The notes under the pieces are model-generated. The model made no database searches. It was not told where the DNA came from and saw only the letters and a list, made by a program, of their open reading frames with translations. From Cellvibrio sp. KY-GH-1 (GTDB lineage Bacteria > Pseudomonadota > Gammaproteobacteria > Pseudomonadales > Cellvibrionaceae), in assembly GCF_008806975.1 (NCBI RefSeq), contig NZ_CP031728.1, positions 4,485,501 to 4,549,500 on the forward strand: a stretch of 64,000 bases of DNA. Reading direction: 5' to 3'. Positions 3,786-15,072 of the stretch are shown here, in pieces; within the stretch, counting starts at the first letter, position 1; every line of letters begins with the position of its first letter. The position numbers and the translations under genes were made by a program.

Positions 3786-5012
<1,227 letters not shown>

Positions 5013-5076
5013 TCATTGTCGAATTGCCTGAATCGCAAAAGCGATTAGCGCCACTTACAAAATAGTGTAACCTCAC

Positions 5077-5101
5077 GCCCGGATCCCCTCCGGGCTTTTT
5101 A
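5077..5101 (+). terminator. Rho-independent terminator after obgE
   Basis: GCCCGGA and TCCGGGC form a 7-bp stem with a short TCCCC loop followed by five T. It lies 65 bp after the obgE stop and 40 bp before proB, so proB needs its own start site. Confidence 0.8.
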
Positions 5102-5140
5102 CATTAATAACTGACGAATATTCCCGAGCGCATTTCTCTC

Positions 5141-6265
5141 ATGAGCAAAAGAGACATAATTCCCCAAGCGAAACGCTGGGTAGTAAAAATAGGTAGCGCA
5201 CTCTTAACCAACGACGGCAAAGGGCTGGATGCTGAAGCAATTGCCGGTTGGGTAAAACAAATGGCCGAGCTGCGTTTGCGCGACATTGAATTGGTGTTGG
5301 TTTCTTCCGGGGCGGTAGCGGCGGGAATGCGCCGGTTGGGGTGGGCATCACGCCCCACTGAAATTCATCAGTTGCAAGCGGCGGCGGCGGTTGGCCAAAT
5401 GGGTTTGGTGCAAACCTATGAAGTGGAATTCCAGCGCTACGGTTTACTTACTGCACAAGTGTTGTTGGATCACGATGACCTCTCTTCGCGTCAACGCTAT
5501 TTAAATGCACGCTCTACTTTAAAAACACTGGTCAGCTTGAATGTCGTTCCGGTTATTAACGAGAACGATACGGTAGTGACCGATGAAATTCGCTTTGGCG
5601 ATAACGACACCCTGGGTGCTTTGGTCGCCAATTTAATTGAAGCCGATTTGCTGGTGATCCTTACCGATCAAAAAGGTATGTACGACAGCGACCCGCGTTC
5701 CAATCCTAACGCACAATTGCTGAGTGAAATTGCAGCTGACGATACCCGCCTCGAACAAATGGCCGGTGGCACTGGCGGTGCGTTAGGGCGCGGGGGGATG
5801 ATCACCAAAGTGCGTGCCGCTCGCGTTGCCGCTCGCTCAGGTGCGGATACTGTGATTGTGGGTGGTCGTATTGAAAATGCACTGCTGCGAATTGCAGCGG
5901 GTGATAATATCGGCACCTTTTTATGGGCCGATCAGCAACCGCAAGCGGCGCGCAAGCGCTGGATTTCCGGGCAATTGCAAACGCGTGGCACTTTGGTGCT
6001 GGATGACGGTGCCGTGCGCGTAGTACGCGAGCAGGGCAAAAGTTTATTGCCGGTCGGTGTTAAAGAAGTGCGCGGCGATTTTACCCGCGGCGACATGGTG
6101 ATTTGTGTCGATTTGCAAGGTAAAGAAATTGCACGTGGTCTGGTAAATTACCACGCCGAGGAAGCACAAAAAATTATCGGCAAACCCAGCAGTCAAATCG
6201 TCGAGATTCTCGGTTATCAGGATGATAACGAATTAATTCATCGCGATAATTTAGTGCTGAGTTAA
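5141..6265 (+). CDS. proB: Glutamate 5-kinase
   Basis: The 374-residue cytoplasmic enzyme phosphorylates glutamate at the gamma-carboxyl, the first and feedback-regulated step of proline synthesis. The amino-acid-kinase domain shows [48 protein letters not shown] and [17 protein letters not shown]-terminal PUA domain occupies about residues 280-370, and the length is typical. The order obg-proB is conserved in pseudomonads. In the window proB is the last gene of the left backbone block, and the next backbone gene, murJ, is 34 kb away. Confidence 0.97.
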
Positions 6266-6290
6266 TTTTTAGTATTCATTTCGCCAATAG

Positions 6291-6327
6291 AAAAAAGCCC
6301 GGTCATTGACAATGACCGGGCTTTTTA
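6291..6327. terminator. Bidirectional terminator between proB and the PEP-CTERM gene
   Basis: AGCCCGGTCATT and AATGACCGGGCT form a perfect 12-bp stem around GAC, flanked by six A on the left and five T on the right. It lies between two convergent genes and can serve both. Confidence 0.9.
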
Positions 6328-6348
6328 TTGTCTATCTCAGCGCAATTA

Positions 6349-6954
6349 TTATTTCGACGATTGCGCCATTCGTGAACGTAGAATCACTACCGCAACCAGG
6401 CCGAGCATTAATAGCCAGCTGGAGGGTTCAGGAACAGTCACGTTGGTGACAGCAACCTGGGTGTTGTTGATGGTGTTGAGCGACAGGTATTCACCTTCAG
6501 CATCACCTAATGAGTTCGCGCCCAGCGAAAAATTGCCGTTGCCGATAGCAATTGCGTTAAACACCAGAGTAAACAGCGTAAATTCCCCTGCTTGCCCATT
6601 GTTCAAGCTGGCAATGTCATCAACCGATAATTCGAACAGGTTGATCAAGCCGGTGCTGAGGTTGCTTGATTGCACGCTGCCAAAGCCAGTTAAATCCAGT
6701 TGATTGCCTTTGCTGCTATCGCCCCAGATCAGGTTGCTGAATGCGAATAAACTGTTATTGAAAACGACATCCAGATCATACACGCCCAATGCGGGTGCAG
6801 ACATGTCATTCAAACCGCTGATATTTACCGCTACTGACACAAGGTTGCCCGTAGCAACACTGGTTTGGTCCGCAACCAAATCAATACTGATTGCATGGGC
6901 ATCCACGGTAAATAACAGCACCAGTGATACCCAAAATTTTCTCAGATGTTTCAT
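6349..6954 (-). CDS. Small PEP-CTERM protein with a cohesin-like domain
   Basis: The start used is the ATG at 6952-6954 (GGGAG upstream), giving 201 residues; an upstream in-frame ATG would spoil the signal peptide. The layout is a signal peptide (MKHLRKFWVSLVLLFTVDAHA), one beta-rich domain of about 140 residues and a C-terminal PEP-CTERM sorting tail: VPEPSSW, then hydrophobic LLMLGLVAVVIL, then RSRMAQSSK. Such tails are recognised by exosortases and keep proteins at the envelope. The domain looks like a cohesin: VSVAVNISGL, a GVYDLDVVF strand and late FTLFTLVFNAI plus a GNGNFSLG turn. It follows the dockerin-bearing nuclease gene by 34 bp on the same strand, so the two are probably one operon. 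The domain call is by pattern, without a profile search. Confidence 0.75.
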   Translation of the reverse strand: MKHLRKFWVSLVLLFTVDAHAISIDLVADQTSVATGNLVSVAVNISGLNDMSAPALGVYDLDVVFNNSLFAFSNLIWGDSSKGNQLDLTGFGSVQSSNLSTGLINLFELSVDDIASLNNGQAGEFTLFTLVFNAIAIGNGNFSLGANSLGDAEGEYLSLNTINNTQVAVTNVTVPEPSSWLLMLGLVAVVILRSRMAQSSK

Positions 6955-6988
6955 GCTTTGCTCCCGCAAAAAATATTTCAATAGAGTC

Positions 6989-9517
6989 TTAGTTGGTTGC
7001 GCAGCCCGTGCGCGTGCATTGCAAAGTCAATGCGCGAGTGTCCAGTGCGTTGATGGCTCCATCACCATTCACATCGCGTTGGTCAAATGCGGTTGGAATT
7101 GCGCCGCGCGCATTGGTAACGATTTGCACATCGTTTTTATCCACGTCGCCGTCGCCATCCAAATCCAATACCAGTTTCAATGAAACGACTAATGGGTCGT
7201 GATCAGATGAGCGATAGGCATCCGCGGAATAGAAACTGTTAAGTTGTACTGCGGATTTAAATTCAGTGTTGTAATCCAGGCTGATGGGTTCGTCGGCGTT
7301 GATATGCCAATCCGCCGCAAACAATACCTGTGGTGTTAATGCATCGCTGGCGAGGCCGTGATCGAGATAACCGGACTGACCGTCAAACACATAGGAGTAA
7401 GCGCTGCTGCCACCAAATTTATTAATCAGGTCGGTGTAACCGCCGTTAATAATTTTGGTAATGGGATTTTCTTTGGCGTAAGCATTTAAATCGCCGATGA
7501 TTAAATAATCGCGATCATTTACGCCGGTGGGGTTGGTGTTCAACCAATTCACCAGTGCGGCAGCTGCCTGGGTGCGAGTGATATTGCAATTGCCCTGACC
7601 ATCGCCGATATCGAGATCACCGAGATCGTTACAATCCGAGCCCTTGGATTTGAAATGGTTAACGACGGCGGTGGCGACGGCGCGGTTGCTATTAACACGG
7701 AAACTTTGCGCCAGTGCCGGGCGATTTTTGGTGTCGATAAATAGTGAATCGATACTTGAATCAAGAATTGCTGCATTACCAATCGCTGAGGCCTTGTCAC
7801 TGCGATAAACGAATCCCACCGCAATTTCATCGGAGCCAATTTTGTTGCGGCCGGGGTTCACAAATTTCCACGCGCTACTGCCGGTTGCGGTGTTCAATGC
7901 CGCGGTTAATTCGGCGATGGCGCTGGTGCTACCATAGCCATCGTTTTCAATTTCAATCAGGCCAATTACGTCGGCATTCAGGCCTGCCAACGCGCTAACA
8001 ATTTTCGCCTTCTGGCGAGCGAATTCCGCCGCCGTATTGGCGCCGCGTGAGGTTGGGAAACCACCGCCCGTACCATTACCGTTGAAAAAATTCAGCACGT
8101 TAAAGCTGGCGATTTTTAAATTCGCGGCTGAATCTGTTATGGGGGAGAGTGGGCGTGCGTTAGTGTGAATAAAGTTCGGTGTGCTCGTGGGTAATAGGCG
8201 ATACACACCAAAATCGTAAGTGATCACACCTTGCAAATTCGCAACAGTATCGCCACTGCGTAAGGTATTTTCCGCCGACAAACCGGGCGCAGGGAAAATT
8301 ACCGGGTCAGGATTTTGCAGATTGCTTGCGTCATCCATCATCAACTTATTCAAATTATTTTGTGTTTGCAGTGCGCTGGCCGCCGGGCCCGGCTCAACAA
8401 TATTGGTCGGCGTTTGCAGGCGACCATTGGCGAGTAATACCTGGCCGTAACGACCCAATTGATAGGTTTCATTGACGGTGAGTGTTTGTGAGATTGCAAC
8501 TGACATGCCTTCAATAGTTTCGAAGTTATCCAGGGATGCAACGGGTAAAGAAACATTGGCAGGCGTTGGCAGGGTTTGTCCGCTGGCACATACAGTGACA
8601 GTAGCGCTCGCGAGTTGCGTTACGCCAAAGGTTTCCGCCACGCTACCGCTGATACGTACGCGATCACCGACATTGACGGCGCTGGTACTCGCGATATAAA
8701 TCCCTTCTGACGTTTGCGCATTGCTGTCAGTCTGCGCATCTTCTTCCTGAACAAAGAAGCCACCCAGTTGATTGGCATTTTGGTAATCGGCAACCACTAT
8801 GGCTTCGATGCTAAGGGTGTTACCGACCAGCGGGCTGCTGGCACCACTGCCTTGTACTGCACTGATCAATGTCGCTGCCTGACCACAGTTGCCAGTATTA
8901 CCACCAGTATTGCCCCCACCTGTGTTGCCTCCACCATTGCTGCTGCCTTGGTAAGTACCGAGGTGATCGAAGGTGTCTTGCGCATAGCCTTCCCACTCTG
9001 CGGCCGGATCGAATGCATTGCTGATAGTCACATCGCCGGTGGTGGTGGAGGTTTTGCGGCGTAGGGTATTGTCTTGTGTGCTGGTTAAACCCGTACCCCA
9101 CTCAGCGCCCGGGTCAACGCCCACCTGGCCGATGCTGTCGATAATTGTGTTGCCATTTTTCAGCACAATCGCATCGTCGCCGTTGTACCAGCCGGCGCTG
9201 TTGGTTTGGTTAGCAGTGGCAAGAATGGTGGTGCTGGCGCTGCCGTGGGCCAGCACAAACACGCCTTGTGCGGGGATGCTGCCAGTGAGGTTGATGGTCA
9301 GGCCGGTGGTAGTACTGCCGTTGAAATACATCTCCACCTTGTAGTTGCTCAGGCTCACCGCGCTGTTGCTGCTGTTATAAATCTCCAGCGCTTTGTTATT
9401 GCTGCTGCCTTCTACGTATTCCGAGAAATACAAATCGGCGCTGGCGGGCAGGGCGCAAAGGCTCGCGATGGCAATGGCCAAGGGTTGATGGAGGGTTTTT
9501 AAAGGGCGGAATGTCAT
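6989..9517 (-). CDS. ExeM/NucH-type extracellular nuclease with dockerin-like C-terminus
   Basis: This is an 842-residue secreted protein with a strong GGGGAG site and an N-terminal signal peptide ending near PASADLYFSEY. The order is a lamin-tail domain (about 25-160; LYFSEYVEGSSNNKALEIYN), a Gly/Asn/Thr linker (about 195-210), an OB-fold ExeM-type domain (about 215-320) and an endonuclease/exonuclease/phosphatase domain. That last domain carries IASFNVLNFF, a catalytic Glu in VIGLIEIEND, HFKSKG, GDLNAYAKENP and SSDHDPLVVS. The last ~55 residues hold two calcium-loop repeats, DLDGDGDVDKND and DVNGDGAINALD, typical of type I dockerins. The likely role is degradation of extracellular DNA for nutrients or biofilm turnover. 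The dockerin is the unusual part, given the cohesin-like neighbour. It is probably first in an operon with the PEP-CTERM gene. Confidence 0.9.
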   Translation of the reverse strand: MTFRPLKTLHQPLAIAIASLCALPASADLYFSEYVEGSSNNKALEIYNSSNSAVSLSNYKVEMYFNGSTTTGLTINLTGSIPAQGVFVLAHGSASTTILATANQTNSAGWYNGDDAIVLKNGNTIIDSIGQVGVDPGAEWGTGLTSTQDNTLRRKTSTTTGDVTISNAFDPAAEWEGYAQDTFDHLGTYQGSSNGGGNTGGGNTGGNTGNCGQAATLISAVQGSGASSPLVGNTLSIEAIVVADYQNANQLGGFFVQEEDAQTDSNAQTSEGIYIASTSAVNVGDRVRISGSVAETFGVTQLASATVTVCASGQTLPTPANVSLPVASLDNFETIEGMSVAISQTLTVNETYQLGRYGQVLLANGRLQTPTNIVEPGPAASALQTQNNLNKLMMDDASNLQNPDPVIFPAPGLSAENTLRSGDTVANLQGVITYDFGVYRLLPTSTPNFIHTNARPLSPITDSAANLKIASFNVLNFFNGNGTGGGFPTSRGANTAAEFARQKAKIVSALAGLNADVIGLIEIENDGYGSTSAIAELTAALNTATGSSAWKFVNPGRNKIGSDEIAVGFVYRSDKASAIGNAAILDSSIDSLFIDTKNRPALAQSFRVNSNRAVATAVVNHFKSKGSDCNDLGDLDIGDGQGNCNITRTQAAAALVNWLNTNPTGVNDRDYLIIGDLNAYAKENPITKIINGGYTDLINKFGGSSAYSYVFDGQSGYLDHGLASDALTPQVLFAADWHINADEPISLDYNTEFKSAVQLNSFYSADAYRSSDHDPLVVSLKLVLDLDGDGDVDKNDVQIVTNARGAIPTAFDQRDVNGDGAINALDTRALTLQCTRTGCATN

Positions 9518-9812
9518 GGCTGGCTCCCCAGGGTATTGGTTATCGTGGGGCGCAGCTTAGGCACCTAATGTTACGGCGCTGTGGCGGGAATTGGTCGGTT
9601 TCGTGATGTTTTGATGACTTCGGGGCGGCAATTGCCAGCCCTGGTTGCTATAGCGATTCAATCTATTAGAAGTGTAAAGATCGGGAACCTTGTCGGAATG
9701 AGCAGGGTCGGAACTACTCCCCTTACTATTTGGGATCATCCCTGAATGAACGATAACTATGTGATCTGAAAGTCTGCATCTGTGTAGACAAAGACGCCGT
9801 ATGGAGGTTTTT
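9518..9812. other. Intergenic region, divergent promoters
   Basis: These 295 bp separate the divergent nuclease and acetyltransferase genes. They must hold both promoters, but I could not pick convincing -35/-10 pairs. No repeat, hairpin or small gene stands out. Confidence 0.4.
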
Positions 9813-10406
9813 ATGAACGCCAGAAACGATCTTTTGTTCGATAAGATTGAATTGCGCCACCCCCTTCCCACCGATGGCGATGATCTAAATCGCCTGCTTG
9901 CCACTACCCCCTTGCTGGATGGCAATTCCGTGCAATGCACCCTGTTGCAGTGCGGTCACTTTGCCAAAACCTCGGCGGCCGCCTTTGATGATGGCGATTT
10001 GGTGGGGTTTGTCTCCGCCTACTGCCCGCCCAGTGAACCCCATACCTTGTTTGTGTGGCAGGTAGTCGTTGCACCGCAATGGCGTGAGCACGGCCTGGGC
10101 AAACGCATGCTGCATTGGTTAGTGGAACAGGCGGACTGCCTGCATTGCACGCGGATGGTTACTGCCATCGCGATTAAAAACACGGTGTCCTGGTCGCTGT
10201 TTGATAGCTTTGCGCGCGACATTGGCGCGCTGCCGGTGAAGTCCTTTGTAACGCCGCTGGATCGCGATCCGCACAATGCGCCCAAAGAGTATCTGCTGCG
10301 CATCGCCCCCTTGCCTAACTGCCCGGACGAAATCATGGGGGATTCCCTTGCCGATTTGCGCGCGGGTTACTCCCACATTCCTGCTATGCGCCGCTGGTTG
10401 GATTAG
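9813..10406 (+). CDS. EctA-family diaminobutyrate acetyltransferase (orphan)
   Basis: The 197-residue GNAT protein starts at 9813, eight bases after GGAGG. It aligns by eye with EctA of the ectoine pathway, which acetylates L-2,4-diaminobutyrate. Points of match are PLLDGNS followed by LLQCGHFA, LVGFVSAYCPP, TLFVWQVVV, the acetyl-CoA loop region EHGLGKRML, and a C-terminal SWSLFDSFAR with a late HDP-like DPHNAPKEYLLRI. EctB and EctC are not adjacent: the nuclease lies upstream, divergent, and a TonB receptor gene follows 112 bp downstream. It may acetylate diaminobutyrate for another product, perhaps tied to metal uptake through the neighbour. That link is speculation. A generic GNAT is the alternative. 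Confidence 0.72.
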   Translation: MNARNDLLFDKIELRHPLPTDGDDLNRLLATTPLLDGNSVQCTLLQCGHFAKTSAAAFDDGDLVGFVSAYCPPSEPHTLFVWQVVVAPQWREHGLGKRMLHWLVEQADCLHCTRMVTAIAIKNTVSWSLFDSFARDIGALPVKSFVTPLDRDPHNAPKEYLLRIAPLPNCPDEIMGDSLADLRAGYSHIPAMRRWLD

Positions 10407-10518
10407 CCGCGACAGAGTACACGCGGCCGCCTGCGACAATTTGTCACTGTTGCTCGCGCGCTAAAACTCCTACCCTGCTGCCCCAAAATCCATTAAAAAA
10501 AGATTGAGGGGCAATTCG

Positions 10519-12879
10519 GTGAGACGACTAACCCTGGTGGTCGCCATAGTGCTGGCCAACCTGAGTGCCGGCGCTATGGCACACGACGAAGTGCTGAAAA
10601 AAAAGCGCAACCAAAACCCGCCAGATGTTGAAGAGGTGAAAGTCTGGGGCGAGGCGCGCGACAGTGCCAGCGCCGGTTATACCAATCCTTCCAGTTTATT
10701 GACCCAGGAAGACATGGTGGCGATTAACAGCTCCACCACCGAAGACCTGGTGAAATACGAACCCAGCATAGTGATTCGCAAACGCTACATTGGTGACTCC
10801 AACGGCACCCTCGGCCTGCGTGGTTCCAATATGTTTGCCACTGCGCGCTCCATGGTATTTGCCGATGGTGTGCCGCTGCATTATTTATTGCAAACCCGCT
10901 GGAGCGGCGCCCCGCGCTGGACCATGGTAAGTGCGAGTGAAATTGCGCAGGTAGAAATTCTCTACGGGCCTTTTTCAGCTGAATACAGTGGCAATTCCAT
11001 GGGCGGTGTGGTGCTTATTGAAACCGCGATTCCGCAAAAGCGCGAAGTACATGTGGACCTGGATTATTTCTCCCAAGATTTTTCTGCCTATGGTTTTAAC
11101 GATCAACTCAACGGCTACAAAACGTTTTTGTCTTACGGCGATAAGCTTGGTGATTTAAGTATTTATTTTTCCTACAATCGTTTGGAAAACGACAGTCAGC
11201 CGCAGTCTTATTATTTTGATCAGGATAAAAATCATAGCGATGCTAAAGTCCAACAACAATTTGCCAAAGCGATCCCGGTTACCGGATTAATTGCCGACAA
11301 AGATGTTTTTGGAAAACCAGCTTATTATTTTGGTGATACCGGTGTTGAGCAAGCCACAACCGACAACTATAAAATTAAATTGGGCTATGACTTTGGCGAT
11401 TGGTCAGCGCTGCTTAATGTCGCTTATGAAGATCGCAACACTTTGCGCGATGCGACCAACAGCTATATTAAAAATGCAAACGGCGATAGGCTCTGGTCCG
11501 GAAATTTTACGGAAAATAATTTATGGATAACCATTCCTGCTGCCCGCTTGGGTGCCAGTGAGCTGGATCGTCGCAGTTTATCTACCGGTCTGCGTATTAA
11601 AGGCCATCTCACCGAATCTGCGCGCTTTGAAGCCAATCTCAGTGATTTTCGAATCCTGGAAGACAACTCGCGTGCATCCAGCCACGCGTTGCAAGATCCG
11701 TTGTTTAAAGGCGCTGGCCAAACCACTAATTATGACGATACCGGTTGGCAAACTCTGGAAGGGAAATTGGTATTTTCCGACTTTGGTACAGAAGGAATTG
11801 AATTCATTACTGGCGCACGCTACGAAGCCTATGAATTAAATCTGGATGTATTTAATTCGACTAATTGGAGGCAGGGCGATAACGCTGGTTACACCAGTCG
11901 CAGCGGTGGCGACACAGACATTGCAGCAGTATTTGCACAAATGAATTGGGATATTAGTGAGCGTTGGGATCTTGCTCTGGGTGGACGTTATGAGCAATGG
12001 GAAAGTAAAAACGGTTACTTCAGCCGCAAAAATCCCACAACGACTGCATTTGAATTAGTTGACCTGGCCGACACAGATCGCAATCAATTCTCACCCAAAT
12101 TTTCACTCGGTTATGTTCCCGCTGATGAGTGGTTGGTGCGTTACTCCTTAGCCAAAGCCTATCGCTTCCCGGTAGTGGAAGAATTATTTACCCAAAGCCA
12201 AAACTATTCGTCGGTCGTGCAGGCGCGCCCGGATTTAAAACCGGAAAACGGTTTGCATCACAACCTGATGGTGGAAAAGCAACTGGAGTCCGGTTATCTG
12301 CGCATCAATATTTTTACTGAAACTATTCAGGATGCGATTGAATCGCAAACCACTTTTTTACCGAGTGGCTCCACGGTTCCCTCGGTAACAACCTTTTCGT
12401 CGGTGGATGAGGTGCAAACTGATGGCGTAGAGCTGATTTTAAATCGCTATGGTTTATTGGTCCCTGAGTTGGATTTGCGTTTCAACCTTGCTTACACCAA
12501 ATCTGTCATCACTGATAACTCCACGGTGGAGGCCAATAACCCGGCAACTGTTAAAAGCATTGAAGGTAATAACTATCCGCGCATGCCGCGTTGGCGCGGC
12601 AACCTCATGGCCACTTATCACGCTACAGATCGCTGGGATTTAAGCGCTAATCTGCAATACGCGGATAAAAGTTTTGGTCGCCTGGATAATACCGACACCG
12701 CAGAGCAAGTCATGGGCGCACAGGATGGCTACACGCGTCTTGGTGTTAAAACCAGTTACGACCTTACGGATAACCTCGAAGCCAGTTTTGGTATTGATAA
12801 CCTAACCAATGAAGAAAGTTATGTGGCGCACCCATGGCCGGGTAGGAGTTATTACTTAAGTCTGTCTTATGATTTATAA
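10519..12879 (+). CDS. TonB-dependent outer membrane receptor
   Basis: I chose the GTG at 10519, seven bases after GAGGGG; it gives 786 residues with a clear signal peptide (MRRLTLVVAIVLANLSAGAMA). An upstream in-frame TTG at 10504 is less likely. After a possible TonB box near EVKVWGE comes a plug domain (DLVKYEPSIVIRKRY, LGLRGSN, ILYGPFSAEYSGNSMGGVV), then a 22-strand barrel ending in the aromatic-rich SYYLSLSYDL. TonB receptors import ferric siderophores, cobalamin, metals or glycans. A PepSY membrane protein 175 bp downstream favours a metal or siderophore substrate. No recognisable Fur box was seen upstream. Confidence 0.92.
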   Translation: MRRLTLVVAIVLANLSAGAMAHDEVLKKKRNQNPPDVEEVKVWGEARDSASAGYTNPSSLLTQEDMVAINSSTTEDLVKYEPSIVIRKRYIGDSNGTLGLRGSNMFATARSMVFADGVPLHYLLQTRWSGAPRWTMVSASEIAQVEILYGPFSAEYSGNSMGGVVLIETAIPQKREVHVDLDYFSQDFSAYGFNDQLNGYKTFLSYGDKLGDLSIYFSYNRLENDSQPQSYYFDQDKNHSDAKVQQQFAKAIPVTGLIADKDVFGKPAYYFGDTGVEQATTDNYKIKLGYDFGDWSALLNVAYEDRNTLRDATNSYIKNANGDRLWSGNFTENNLWITIPAARLGASELDRRSLSTGLRIKGHLTESARFEANLSDFRILEDNSRASSHALQDPLFKGAGQTTNYDDTGWQTLEGKLVFSDFGTEGIEFITGARYEAYELNLDVFNSTNWRQGDNAGYTSRSGGDTDIAAVFAQMNWDISERWDLALGGRYEQWESKNGYFSRKNPTTTAFELVDLADTDRNQFSPKFSLGYVPADEWLVRYSLAKAYRFPVVEELFTQSQNYSSVVQARPDLKPENGLHHNLMVEKQLESGYLRINIFTETIQDAIESQTTFLPSGSTVPSVTTFSSVDEVQTDGVELILNRYGLLVPELDLRFNLAYTKSVITDNSTVEANNPATVKSIEGNNYPRMPRWRGNLMATYHATDRWDLSANLQYADKSFGRLDNTDTAEQVMGAQDGYTRLGVKTSYDLTDNLEASFGIDNLTNEESYVAHPWPGRSYYLSLSYDL

Positions 12880-12913
12880 ATAAACCACTAGCTAATAAAT
12901 TTCTACGATTCGA

Positions 12914-13021
12914 GTTTGCCGTGACGGGGATTCATTTCAAAACCGTAAAGGCATGGATGCCGCCACGGAGCTACATGGATGTATTAATGCGTTTTTGAAA
13001 TGAATCCCCGTCGCGGTAAAC
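12914..13021. repeat. Large imperfect palindrome (long stem-loop)
   Basis: The arms 12914-12942 and 12993-13021 pair over about 29 bp. The inner 20 bp (12923-12942 with 12993-13012) pair perfectly and the outer part carries two mismatches. The 50-bp loop contains two smaller dyads, GCATGGATGC and ACATGGATGT, which share the GCATGGATG core with the repeats at 3615-3745. It fills most of the gap between the TonB receptor and the PepSY gene. It could be an intergenic repeat element or an attenuating hairpin in the transcript. Confidence 0.8.
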
Positions 13022-13054
13022 GTATTCGGAGCACGTTAAAAAGGCGTGAATAAA

Positions 13055-14362
13055 ATGAATACATCAACCCTGTTAGCCAATACTAATAACAGTCGCGCCC
13101 TATATCGAACCATCTGGCGCTGGCATTTTTACGCCGGCATTTTCAGTATCCCTTTTGTGATTTTGCTTTCCATTACCGGCGCCATTTATTTATTCAAACC
13201 TTATTATGAACGCTGGCAAGAAAGCCAATTCCATAATTTAACTGTTAATGGCGAACAATTAACCACCAACGAACAAATACAAGCGGCACTTAACGCAATT
13301 CCCAATGGAAAATTTCTCAGCTATCGCCTGCCGCAACATACCAATGAATCAGTATTGATCAATGTGCAAGCGGAAAGTAGCTGGCAAGTATTTGTAAATC
13401 CTTACACGGGCGCTGTGGTCGGCAAGCAAGAAAACAGTTGGCAATTAATGAATATTGTAAAAACCATTCACGGCGAATTGCTGCTTGGCACAACAGGATC
13501 AATTCTGGTTGAGCTGGCGGCCTGCTGGGCGATTGTATTAATCGTCAGCGGTTTGTATTTGTGGTGGCCACGCAATGCCAACGGAATGGCTGGTGTTATT
13601 TATCCGCGTCTGCGCGAAGGCAAGCGTACTTTTTGGCGCGACCTGCACGCCGTTACCGGAATTTGGATCTCTTCACTCGCATTGTTTTTATTAATTACCG
13701 GATTGCCTTGGGCGTTGGTCTGGGGCGCCGCGTTAAAAGAAGTCCGCGCAATAGATTTTTCGCAACAGCAAGATTGGACTCAAAGCCGCGCACAAGAACA
13801 CCAGCACGGGCGCGCACAGGCAAGCGCTGAGTTTAACCTGACCCCGGAAATTTTAGCCACCGCTCAAACATTGCAGTTGGCCCCGCCGGTAGAACTCAGT
13901 ATTGCCGAACCTATGTTTAATCGCTGGAAAGTATCATCGCAAACGCAAAATCGCCCGCAGCGCATGGATGTCTGGATCAGCAGTCAGGGCAATATTGAAA
14001 AGCAATCCGGCTTTGCCGAGAAAAAGATGATCGATAAAGCCATTGGTGTTGGTATAGCCGCACACGAAGGATATTTATTTGGCTGGTTTAATTTGCTGTT
14101 GGGTGTGCTGACGTGTGCGGGATTAATTCTAATCAGTGTCAGCGGATTTATTTTATGGCGCAAACGTAAACCGGATTCAGTGCTGGGTGCTCCCCCGATA
14201 ATGCCGGTGCGGGTTGGCTTTTCAGTAATCGCGATTACCCTGGGTTTGGCAATCCTTTTGCCGTTATTGGCAATCTCACTGGTAGCGCTTCTAGCGCTAG
14301 AGTTCCTTGTGCTGCGTCGGTTGCGCGGTGTCAGTCTTTGGTTAGGGTTGGCTAACGATTAA
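13055..14362 (+). CDS. PepSY-associated membrane protein (iron-uptake type)
   Basis: This inner-membrane protein of about 435 residues has four long hydrophobic segments. They are HFYAGIFSIPFVILLSITGAI near the N-terminus, ELAACWAIVLIVSGLYLWWP, SLALFLLITGLPWALVWG, and a C-terminal pair around LLGVLTCAGLILISVSGFIL and LGLAILLPLLAISLVALL. PepSY-like periplasmic stretches lie between them (residues ~55-115 and ~255-330). The family (PiuB-like) is usually found beside TonB receptors and is thought to help reduce or release iron from siderophores in the periplasm. The upstream GTG at 13046 is an alternative start. The gene ends with a 4-bp overlap into the convergent hydrolase gene. Confidence 0.85.
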   Translation: MNTSTLLANTNNSRALYRTIWRWHFYAGIFSIPFVILLSITGAIYLFKPYYERWQESQFHNLTVNGEQLTTNEQIQAALNAIPNGKFLSYRLPQHTNESVLINVQAESSWQVFVNPYTGAVVGKQENSWQLMNIVKTIHGELLLGTTGSILVELAACWAIVLIVSGLYLWWPRNANGMAGVIYPRLREGKRTFWRDLHAVTGIWISSLALFLLITGLPWALVWGAALKEVRAIDFSQQQDWTQSRAQEHQHGRAQASAEFNLTPEILATAQTLQLAPPVELSIAEPMFNRWKVSSQTQNRPQRMDVWISSQGNIEKQSGFAEKKMIDKAIGVGIAAHEGYLFGWFNLLLGVLTCAGLILISVSGFILWRKRKPDSVLGAPPIMPVRVGFSVIAITLGLAILLPLLAISLVALLALEFLVLRRLRGVSLWLGLAND

Positions 14363-15072
14363 TGCACATTTTTAAGTAACTGCGGCCACAATTGAATCCA
14401 GGTTTTCCAGTTATGTTTTCCCGCTTGGGTTACTGTGTGCTCTGGCGGTAATTGTCTTGCCAATAATGTATTGGGAATAGCAAATTTGTCGTTGTTTCCA
14501 TAAGCGAGATAAATTTTATTTTTAGTGGCGTCGGGTAGTTGCGTTAACCAGGGCCACAAGTTTACATCGCGTGGTGGCTGAGTCGGGGCCGTATTTTCAA
14601 TGAGGTAGTTGTAGTCTTGCGGATCGCCGAGATAGGGTGCAAGAATAAATATTTTGCTGATGTCATCCGGGTAGTTTTTCAAATACAACAATGAGCCTAT
14701 GCCGCCCATTGAAATCCCGCCTAAATAAATTTCACTGTAGCCCGCGTCGAGCGCGGGTTTAATAATGTCCTGTCGCAGTCGCACGATAATTGTGCGCGCC
14801 GAGTAATATTTAACGTGAGCTTCTACCGCGACTATGTCCATCGTTGGGTAGGCAGCGCGAATCATCTCAATCACGCCATGCTTGTCAAATGCGCTAGCCC
14901 TATCGCCAATGCCGGGGAGCAATACCATTAATTGTTTTAGCTGCTTTTGTTCCTGCGTTGCCGCTTGGTGCGGGTAATGGATGGCTTGTATGGGAATAAC
15001 GGTACTTTGCAGGTAGTAACAGCCGCTGAGTAGAGCAACTAGGCATAGGCTGGCAAGAGCTTTCAGAGGCAT
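14359..15072 (-). CDS. Lipoprotein alpha/beta hydrolase
   Basis: Starting at the ATG at 15070-15072 (AGGAAA upstream), the 237-residue product begins MPLKALASLCLVALLSGCYY, a lipoprotein signal with lipobox LSGC and Cys at about residue 19. It is therefore membrane-anchored, probably in the periplasm. The hydrolase core shows LLPGIGDRASAFDKHG, nucleophile elbow GGISMGGIG, FILAPYLGDP, an acid in AYGNNDKF and a histidine in AGKHNWKTW. It is probably an esterase; the substrate is unknown. It is convergent with the PepSY gene and divergent from the GST gene. An upstream in-frame Met exists but would bury the signal peptide. Confidence 0.75.
   Translation of the reverse strand: MPLKALASLCLVALLSGCYYLQSTVIPIQAIHYPHQAATQEQKQLKQLMVLLPGIGDRASAFDKHGVIEMIRAAYPTMDIVAVEAHVKYYSARTIIVRLRQDIIKPALDAGYSEIYLGGISMGGIGSLLYLKNYPDDISKIFILAPYLGDPQDYNYLIENTAPTQPPRDVNLWPWLTQLPDATKNKIYLAYGNNDKFAIPNTLLARQLPPEHTVTQAGKHNWKTWIQLWPQLLKNVH

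Follow-up and report, generated by a model that had tools for sequence, protein, structure and literature searches.

In Cellvibrio sp. KY-GH-1, two adjacent genes encode an extracellular nuclease of the ExeM/NucH family that ends in a type I dockerin and a small protein with a predicted cohesin fold and a PEP-CTERM sorting tail. Both lie on the minus strand of the 64,000-nucleotide stretch analysed here (NZ_CP031728.1, positions 4,485,501 to 4,549,500; below, the window). The pair belongs to a wider module that recurs with other cargo in other genera, being present in 23 genomes of 19 genera in the order and class searches combined. It is likely to act as a tether of one cohesin and one dockerin, and thus as a transferable two-piece retention module for secreted proteins; the case is built on the domains, the predicted folds, the linkage of the genes, their recurrence in genomes outside the sample and the swapping of cargo. 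The first-pass annotation had proposed that a dockerin-tagged nuclease is paired with a cohesin-like PEP-CTERM protein, and this interpretation is supported: the two neighbouring genes, 34 bp apart, were confirmed at 6989-9517 and 6349-6954, with the following features.

6989..9517, minus strand: ExeM/NucH family extracellular nuclease with C-terminal dockerin, 842 amino acids (aa) (NF033681, E 5.4e-193, 642.8 bits against a cut-off of 300)
9122..9445, minus strand: lamin tail domain (LTD), aa 25-132 (PF00932, E 1.9e-18)
7172..8809, minus strand: ExeM/NucH core including the endonuclease/exonuclease/phosphatase domain, aa 237-782 (NF033681 over aa 237-782; PF03372 over aa 470-731, just above cut-off)
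7031..7165, minus strand: type I dockerin with two calcium-loop repeats, aa 785-829 (PF00404 and predicted model)
7001..7018, minus strand: dockerin tail with the CxxxxC motif, aa 834-839, which characterises this subtype (alignment A2)
6955..6988, minus strand: intergenic gap of 34 bp, from nuclease stop to cohesin ATG (open reading frame coordinates)
6349..6954, minus strand: cohesin protein with PEP-CTERM tail, 201 aa from ATG (open reading frame list; family alignment A1)
6892..6954, minus strand: putative signal peptide, likely cut after AHA at aa 19-21 (translation, by eye only)
6439..6897, minus strand: cohesin domain, aa 20-172
6370..6438, minus strand: PEP-CTERM sorting signal, aa 173-195, with VPEP, hydrophobic helix and basic end (PF07589, 23.8 bits against a cut-off of 20.7)

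The dockerin-like calcium-loop repeats reported earlier are recognised by the Pfam model Dockerin_1 (PF00404) at 23.9 bits, just above the curated cut-off of 22.9 (E 4.7e-5). The predicted model has a loop-helix/loop-helix arrangement, in which the loops are followed by helices 22-30 and 52-59. Structure comparison supports a dockerin fold: each of the 21 entries listed in a second comparison carries a dockerin, judged by title except for 3kcp and 4fl4, which likewise contain one. Both cysteines of CxxxxC are invariant in all 12 rows of the dockerin alignment A2. The N-terminus of the nuclease resembles a signal peptide by eye. An ExeM-GG (GlyGly-CTERM) identity was rejected for this protein, which scores 403 bits with NF033680 against a cut-off of 1300 and has a dockerin as its C-terminus.

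The PEP-CTERM tail claimed for the small protein holds, with PF07589 above cut-off. The claim of cohesin-like strands holds as well, through the family and the predicted fold. In a single-sequence Pfam scan the window protein gave no cohesin (PF00963) match up to E 10, and therefore the family and the predicted fold were used as evidence. PF00963 matches 57 of the 64 members of family alignment A1 at E<=1, the window protein being among the 64 and outside the 57. The family profile matches the NagJ cohesin 2jh2 (E 0.0015), and the predicted structure of the small protein is a cohesin jelly-roll, the type of fold whose absence had been named as counting against the pair. An alternative TTG start at 6981 would extend the protein to 210 aa.

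The window's genome, a single contig of 5.76 Mb, contains one dockerin above cut-off plus one weak match below it, and one full-length member of this cohesin family (profile A1). The sole above-cut-off dockerin and the sole full-length cohesin adjoin; with one of each in this genome, and adjacent genes, the pairing is beyond chance. No PF00963 match was found in the genome, but the model also misses the window's own cohesin, so a diverged second cohesin may be present. An exosortase is present in one copy (PF09721, E 8.0e-44). It is above the TIGR02602 cut-off, and its top match is XrtA, under the XrtA cut-off (250-aa piece scanned). The enzyme is EpsH/XrtA-like; its gene is preceded by a PEP-CTERM gene and followed by one that, by eye, resembles a glycosyltransferase gene. 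PEP-CTERM matches in this genome number 20 above cut-off among 27 listed.

To follow the pair through other genomes, A1 served as a full-length profile of the cohesin family and A2 as a profile of the dockerin including its CxxxxC tail. The named relatives are Cellvibrio or unclassified Gammaproteobacteria. All 11 Cellvibrio-type loci carry the cohesin gene with a nuclease bearing an identical type of dockerin just upstream, as the first-pass annotation had suggested looking for; in two of them the nuclease is only partly seen (L033, ambiguous bases; L038, cut by the stretch edge). In L033 the ambiguous bases, near 5618-5947, break the nuclease frame before the dockerin, perhaps an assembly matter. 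Among 390 genomes of the window's order, A1 matched 10 and A2 matched 13, 11 of these strongly (E<=1e-16). All 10 A1 genomes fall within the 11 strong A2 genomes, with both genes at the same locus, adjacent or no more than 5 kb apart, and in the eleventh (G011) a cohesin gene was found on wider reading (L158). In 369 genomes of the class, A2 gave 13 matches at E<=1e-8, 12 of them new. A second protein search (profile A3) yielded mostly already known proteins.

G011 and the 12 new genomes of the class form an out-of-sample set of 13, found from the dockerin alone and not used in building A2. An A1 cohesin match is present in the fetched stretch of all 13. Since full-length A1 also gave tail-only matches to other PEP-CTERM proteins, a tail-less cohesin-region profile was built as a control. 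The first control loci had flanks of 1.5 kb, whereas the pair loci were 5-17 kb long, and matched wide stretches were therefore scanned. The cohesin-region profile matched 11/13 out-of-sample stretches (171 kb) and 0/40 controls, these being wide stretches at 28 of the 29 Pfam dockerin sites read (343 kb; G305, whose site is a pair locus, excluded) and 12 around ExeM genes (184 kb; from 27 fetched pair-less ExeM loci), with no match in either set. Short-locus scans gave matches in 1/29 dockerin, 3/30 ExeM and 1/27 own-genome PEP-CTERM loci, and every match was a pair locus. The Pfam cohesin model PF00963, which is independent of A1, matches 16 of the 20 widely fetched partner proteins at E<=1, five of them above cut-off. 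One candidate, L066/L170 in G068, was rejected as a pair locus: its A1 match is tail-driven, it fails the cohesin-region profile and its dockerin has no CxxxxC. What is seen there, near C1:3842200, is a VPVPAA-tailed small protein near a dockerin protein.

ExeM occurs in 104/390 genomes of the order. Of 30 ExeM loci fetched, three combine the Cys-tailed dockerin with the cohesin; the remainder end, by eye, in PKD-like, GlyGly-CTERM-like, other or no tails, except for two (L088, L095) whose tail is dockerin-like but has no CxxxxC. Together with the controls, this survey indicates that the cohesin tracks the dockerin and not the nuclease as such. Other PF00404 dockerins of the order are mostly on other proteins, without such a cohesin nearby, and are outside this system. 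Weak A2 matches (E 1e-6 to 0.0084) occur in 7/28 wide dockerin controls, with no cohesin match, and the weak A2 matches in the order are G015 and G087; the pairing rule is thus limited to strong A2 matches.

The cargo differs between genera. A Pfam scan covered 19 cargoes, leaving out the second L147 dockerin gene and the L158 dockerin gene. The dockerin was found on IgGFc-binding proteins (L147, L160, L161), subtilases (L149, L155), a GDSL lipase (L148), an RHS/PASTA protein (L144), PKD or Ig-repeat proteins (L145, L159) and ExeM in other families (L152, L153, L162); four of the 19 (L143, L150, L151, L156) had no Pfam match at E<=0.001. Its position varies as well: L144, L145 and one L147 gene carry it close to the N-terminus, and in L154 and L158 it is internal. 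Of 31 linked loci, 30 have CxxxxC after the second loop, the exception being L154. Two further cysteines, the first ahead of loop 1 and the second behind loop 2, occur together: by eye, 14 of those 30 loci have both and 16 have neither, an all-or-none pattern that matches what a disulfide would require. In L147 (G629; 4810-14993), one cohesin gene lies between two dockerin genes, whose products are an IgGFc-binding protein and a protein of 2458 aa that has its dockerin close to the N-terminus. That this tag-and-socket pair recurs with differing proteins points to a general means of keeping secreted proteins close to the cell.

Exosortase accompanies the pair, with PF09721 above cut-off in 21/23 pair genomes compared with 15/40 comparison genomes (17/40 at E<=0.001). 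The latter are 40 genomes listed without a profile match in the order and class searches, of which 13 belong to the same family as the window's genome. At L041, an exosortase/archaeosortase-family gene (6476-7012; TIGR04178 above cut-off) is located 1.7 kb from a cohesin gene. The cohesin tail there is VPLPA-like and below cut-off, and an intervening gene with its own PTLPAW-like tail may be the substrate instead.

From these observations we infer how the two proteins are exported, bind and are processed by exosortase, where they end up and what they do for the cell. The nuclease would be exported by its own signal peptide and fold outside the cytoplasm, where calcium would shape the dockerin. 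The small cohesin protein would also be exported, and exosortase, acting through the PEP-CTERM tail, would hand the cohesin to the envelope or the exopolysaccharide layer. There the cohesin would grip the dockerin and keep the nuclease close to the cell. The sorting signal would thus be split, the exosortase tail being on the small cohesin and the enzyme being caught through its dockerin, and other genera may use the same two modules to hold other secreted proteins. A broader proposal is a widespread, modular form of Gram-negative surface display, in which an exosortase-sorted single-cohesin socket receives Cys-tailed dockerins with cargo that differs between genera, and the separate adaptor lets large folded enzymes leave by another route and be captured outside. 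We lean towards this broader proposal, though only slightly.

Several results weigh against the tether, beginning with the null PF00963 scan of the window protein. The L152 and L153 partners fail the cohesin-region profile, so that their assignment depends more on the tail, the size and the position of the gene. In 4/13 out-of-sample loci (L148, L151, L154, L158) the cohesin gene is wholly or mostly more than 1.5 kb from the dockerin. Of the 20 partners fetched with wide flanks, 15 match PF07589 at E<=1 and just eight are above cut-off; for the 13 out-of-sample partners these numbers are nine and four; some other partner tails look like variants, such as VPLPA. Two pair genomes have no PF09721 match, G119 (74% complete) and G584 (99% complete, pair locus L146). 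The Fisher values overstate the case, because the compared genomes are related by descent. Co-divergence of cohesin and dockerin (Spearman 0.57, 31 loci) was discounted as evidence, since shared ancestry alone suffices to produce it.

The best-surviving alternative, which we consider unlikely, is that cohesin-dockerin binding aids export, folding or protection of the cargo. The cohesin, kept at the inner membrane by its PEP-CTERM tail, would then be a passing escort from which the nuclease is later released. This alternative gains from Shewanella ExeM, which according to PMC6085458 fractionates almost solely with the inner membrane even when its C-terminal anchor is missing. A GspC-like gene (by eye, no profile) at 9580-10374, beside the cohesin gene of L156 (G180), is a possible type II secretion link and points the same way. 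However, cohesin and dockerin bind tightly where their complexes have been solved, which fits holding better than escort.

Less probable still is that the genes are neighbours by descent only, the dockerin binding another ligand or stabilising the C-terminus and the cohesin-fold protein being an unrelated PEP-CTERM protein of the matrix. Two ExeM nucleases with dockerin-like tails, in L088 (G214) and L095 (G340), have no cohesin-region match nearby, which favours this account, but these lone tails do not carry the CxxxxC mark. Linkage across the 23 genomes with differing cargo, and the empty matched controls, also argue against it. Least credible of all is a true cellulosome-like assembly, in which the cohesin recruits several dockerin enzymes or multimerises into a DNA-degrading complex: the two dockerin genes flanking the L147 cohesin gene would suit it, but the window's genome has its single dockerin above cut-off and single full-length cohesin of this family, and the 20 partner proteins, of 173-235 aa, have space for one cohesin domain each.

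Downstream of the pair is one further element.

6292..6326, strand not assigned: terminator-like hairpin of 16 pairs between the gene pair and a convergent proB-like gene (gene named by eye; the scan lists the hairpin on the + strand)

Its stem is bordered by A and T runs and, on this reading of the sequence, could act for both sides. The terminator scan overall found three such sites against 4.5 in shuffles, and this hairpin is distinguished by stem length alone.

The pair differs from known systems. Cellulosome type I/II pairs (Clostridium, Acetivibrio) involve a scaffoldin and plant-fibre enzymes, whereas here there is one cohesin per protein and neither scaffoldin nor plant-fibre enzyme in the pair; the window dockerin, unlike those of cellulosomes, has a CxxxxC tail, and Cellvibrio is Gram-negative. 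Cellulosome membership was accordingly rejected, as it requires a multi-cohesin scaffoldin and many dockerin enzymes, a combination not found in the genome with the Pfam cohesin and dockerin models and A1, and the earlier wording "cellulosome-like" overstated a pair of one cohesin and one dockerin. NagJ/NagH of Clostridium perfringens (2jh2, 2ozn) are non-cellulosomal, and their cohesin is, by entry titles, a glycosidase module, whereas the window cohesin forms a small protein of its own that bears an exosortase tail. Shewanella oneidensis ExeM (GlyGly-CTERM, NF033680) shares the nuclease family and the LTD-core layout with the window nuclease. According to PMC6085458, it needs Ca2+, stays with the membrane and bears its own C-terminal membrane segment; in the window a dockerin stands in that place and the membrane tail is on the partner. 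Holding the nuclease near the cell would fit this membrane association. PEP-CTERM/exosortase sorting, as outlined in the accessible text of PMC1569441, acts on the tagged protein itself, and substrate fate is given there as a proposal only; tail and exosortase are both present here too, but the tagged protein would be a socket for a second protein.

Cohesin, dockerin, exosortase and ExeM are known individually, and NCBI already labels some relatives "cohesin domain-containing protein"; new is their joining, of which no account was found in the literature searched. No report of PEP-CTERM with cohesin, with dockerin or with both, or of an extracellular nuclease with dockerin, turned up, and subscription papers may hold an earlier mention. 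For exosortase with cohesin or dockerin, only an archaeal paper was retrieved (PMC5244752), which calls cohesin/dockerin function outside the cellulosome not known. The cohesin-dockerin-exosortase pairing is not described in the accessible portions of PMC5244752, PMC6085458, PMC1569441, PMC3237569 and PMC12484212. The questions of cohesin/dockerin and of exosortase meet here in a two-gene module with a clear, testable prediction. If the tether is real, it would let Gram-negative bacteria keep a variety of proteins at the cell surface and would offer a natural tool for display, probably one that depends on calcium.
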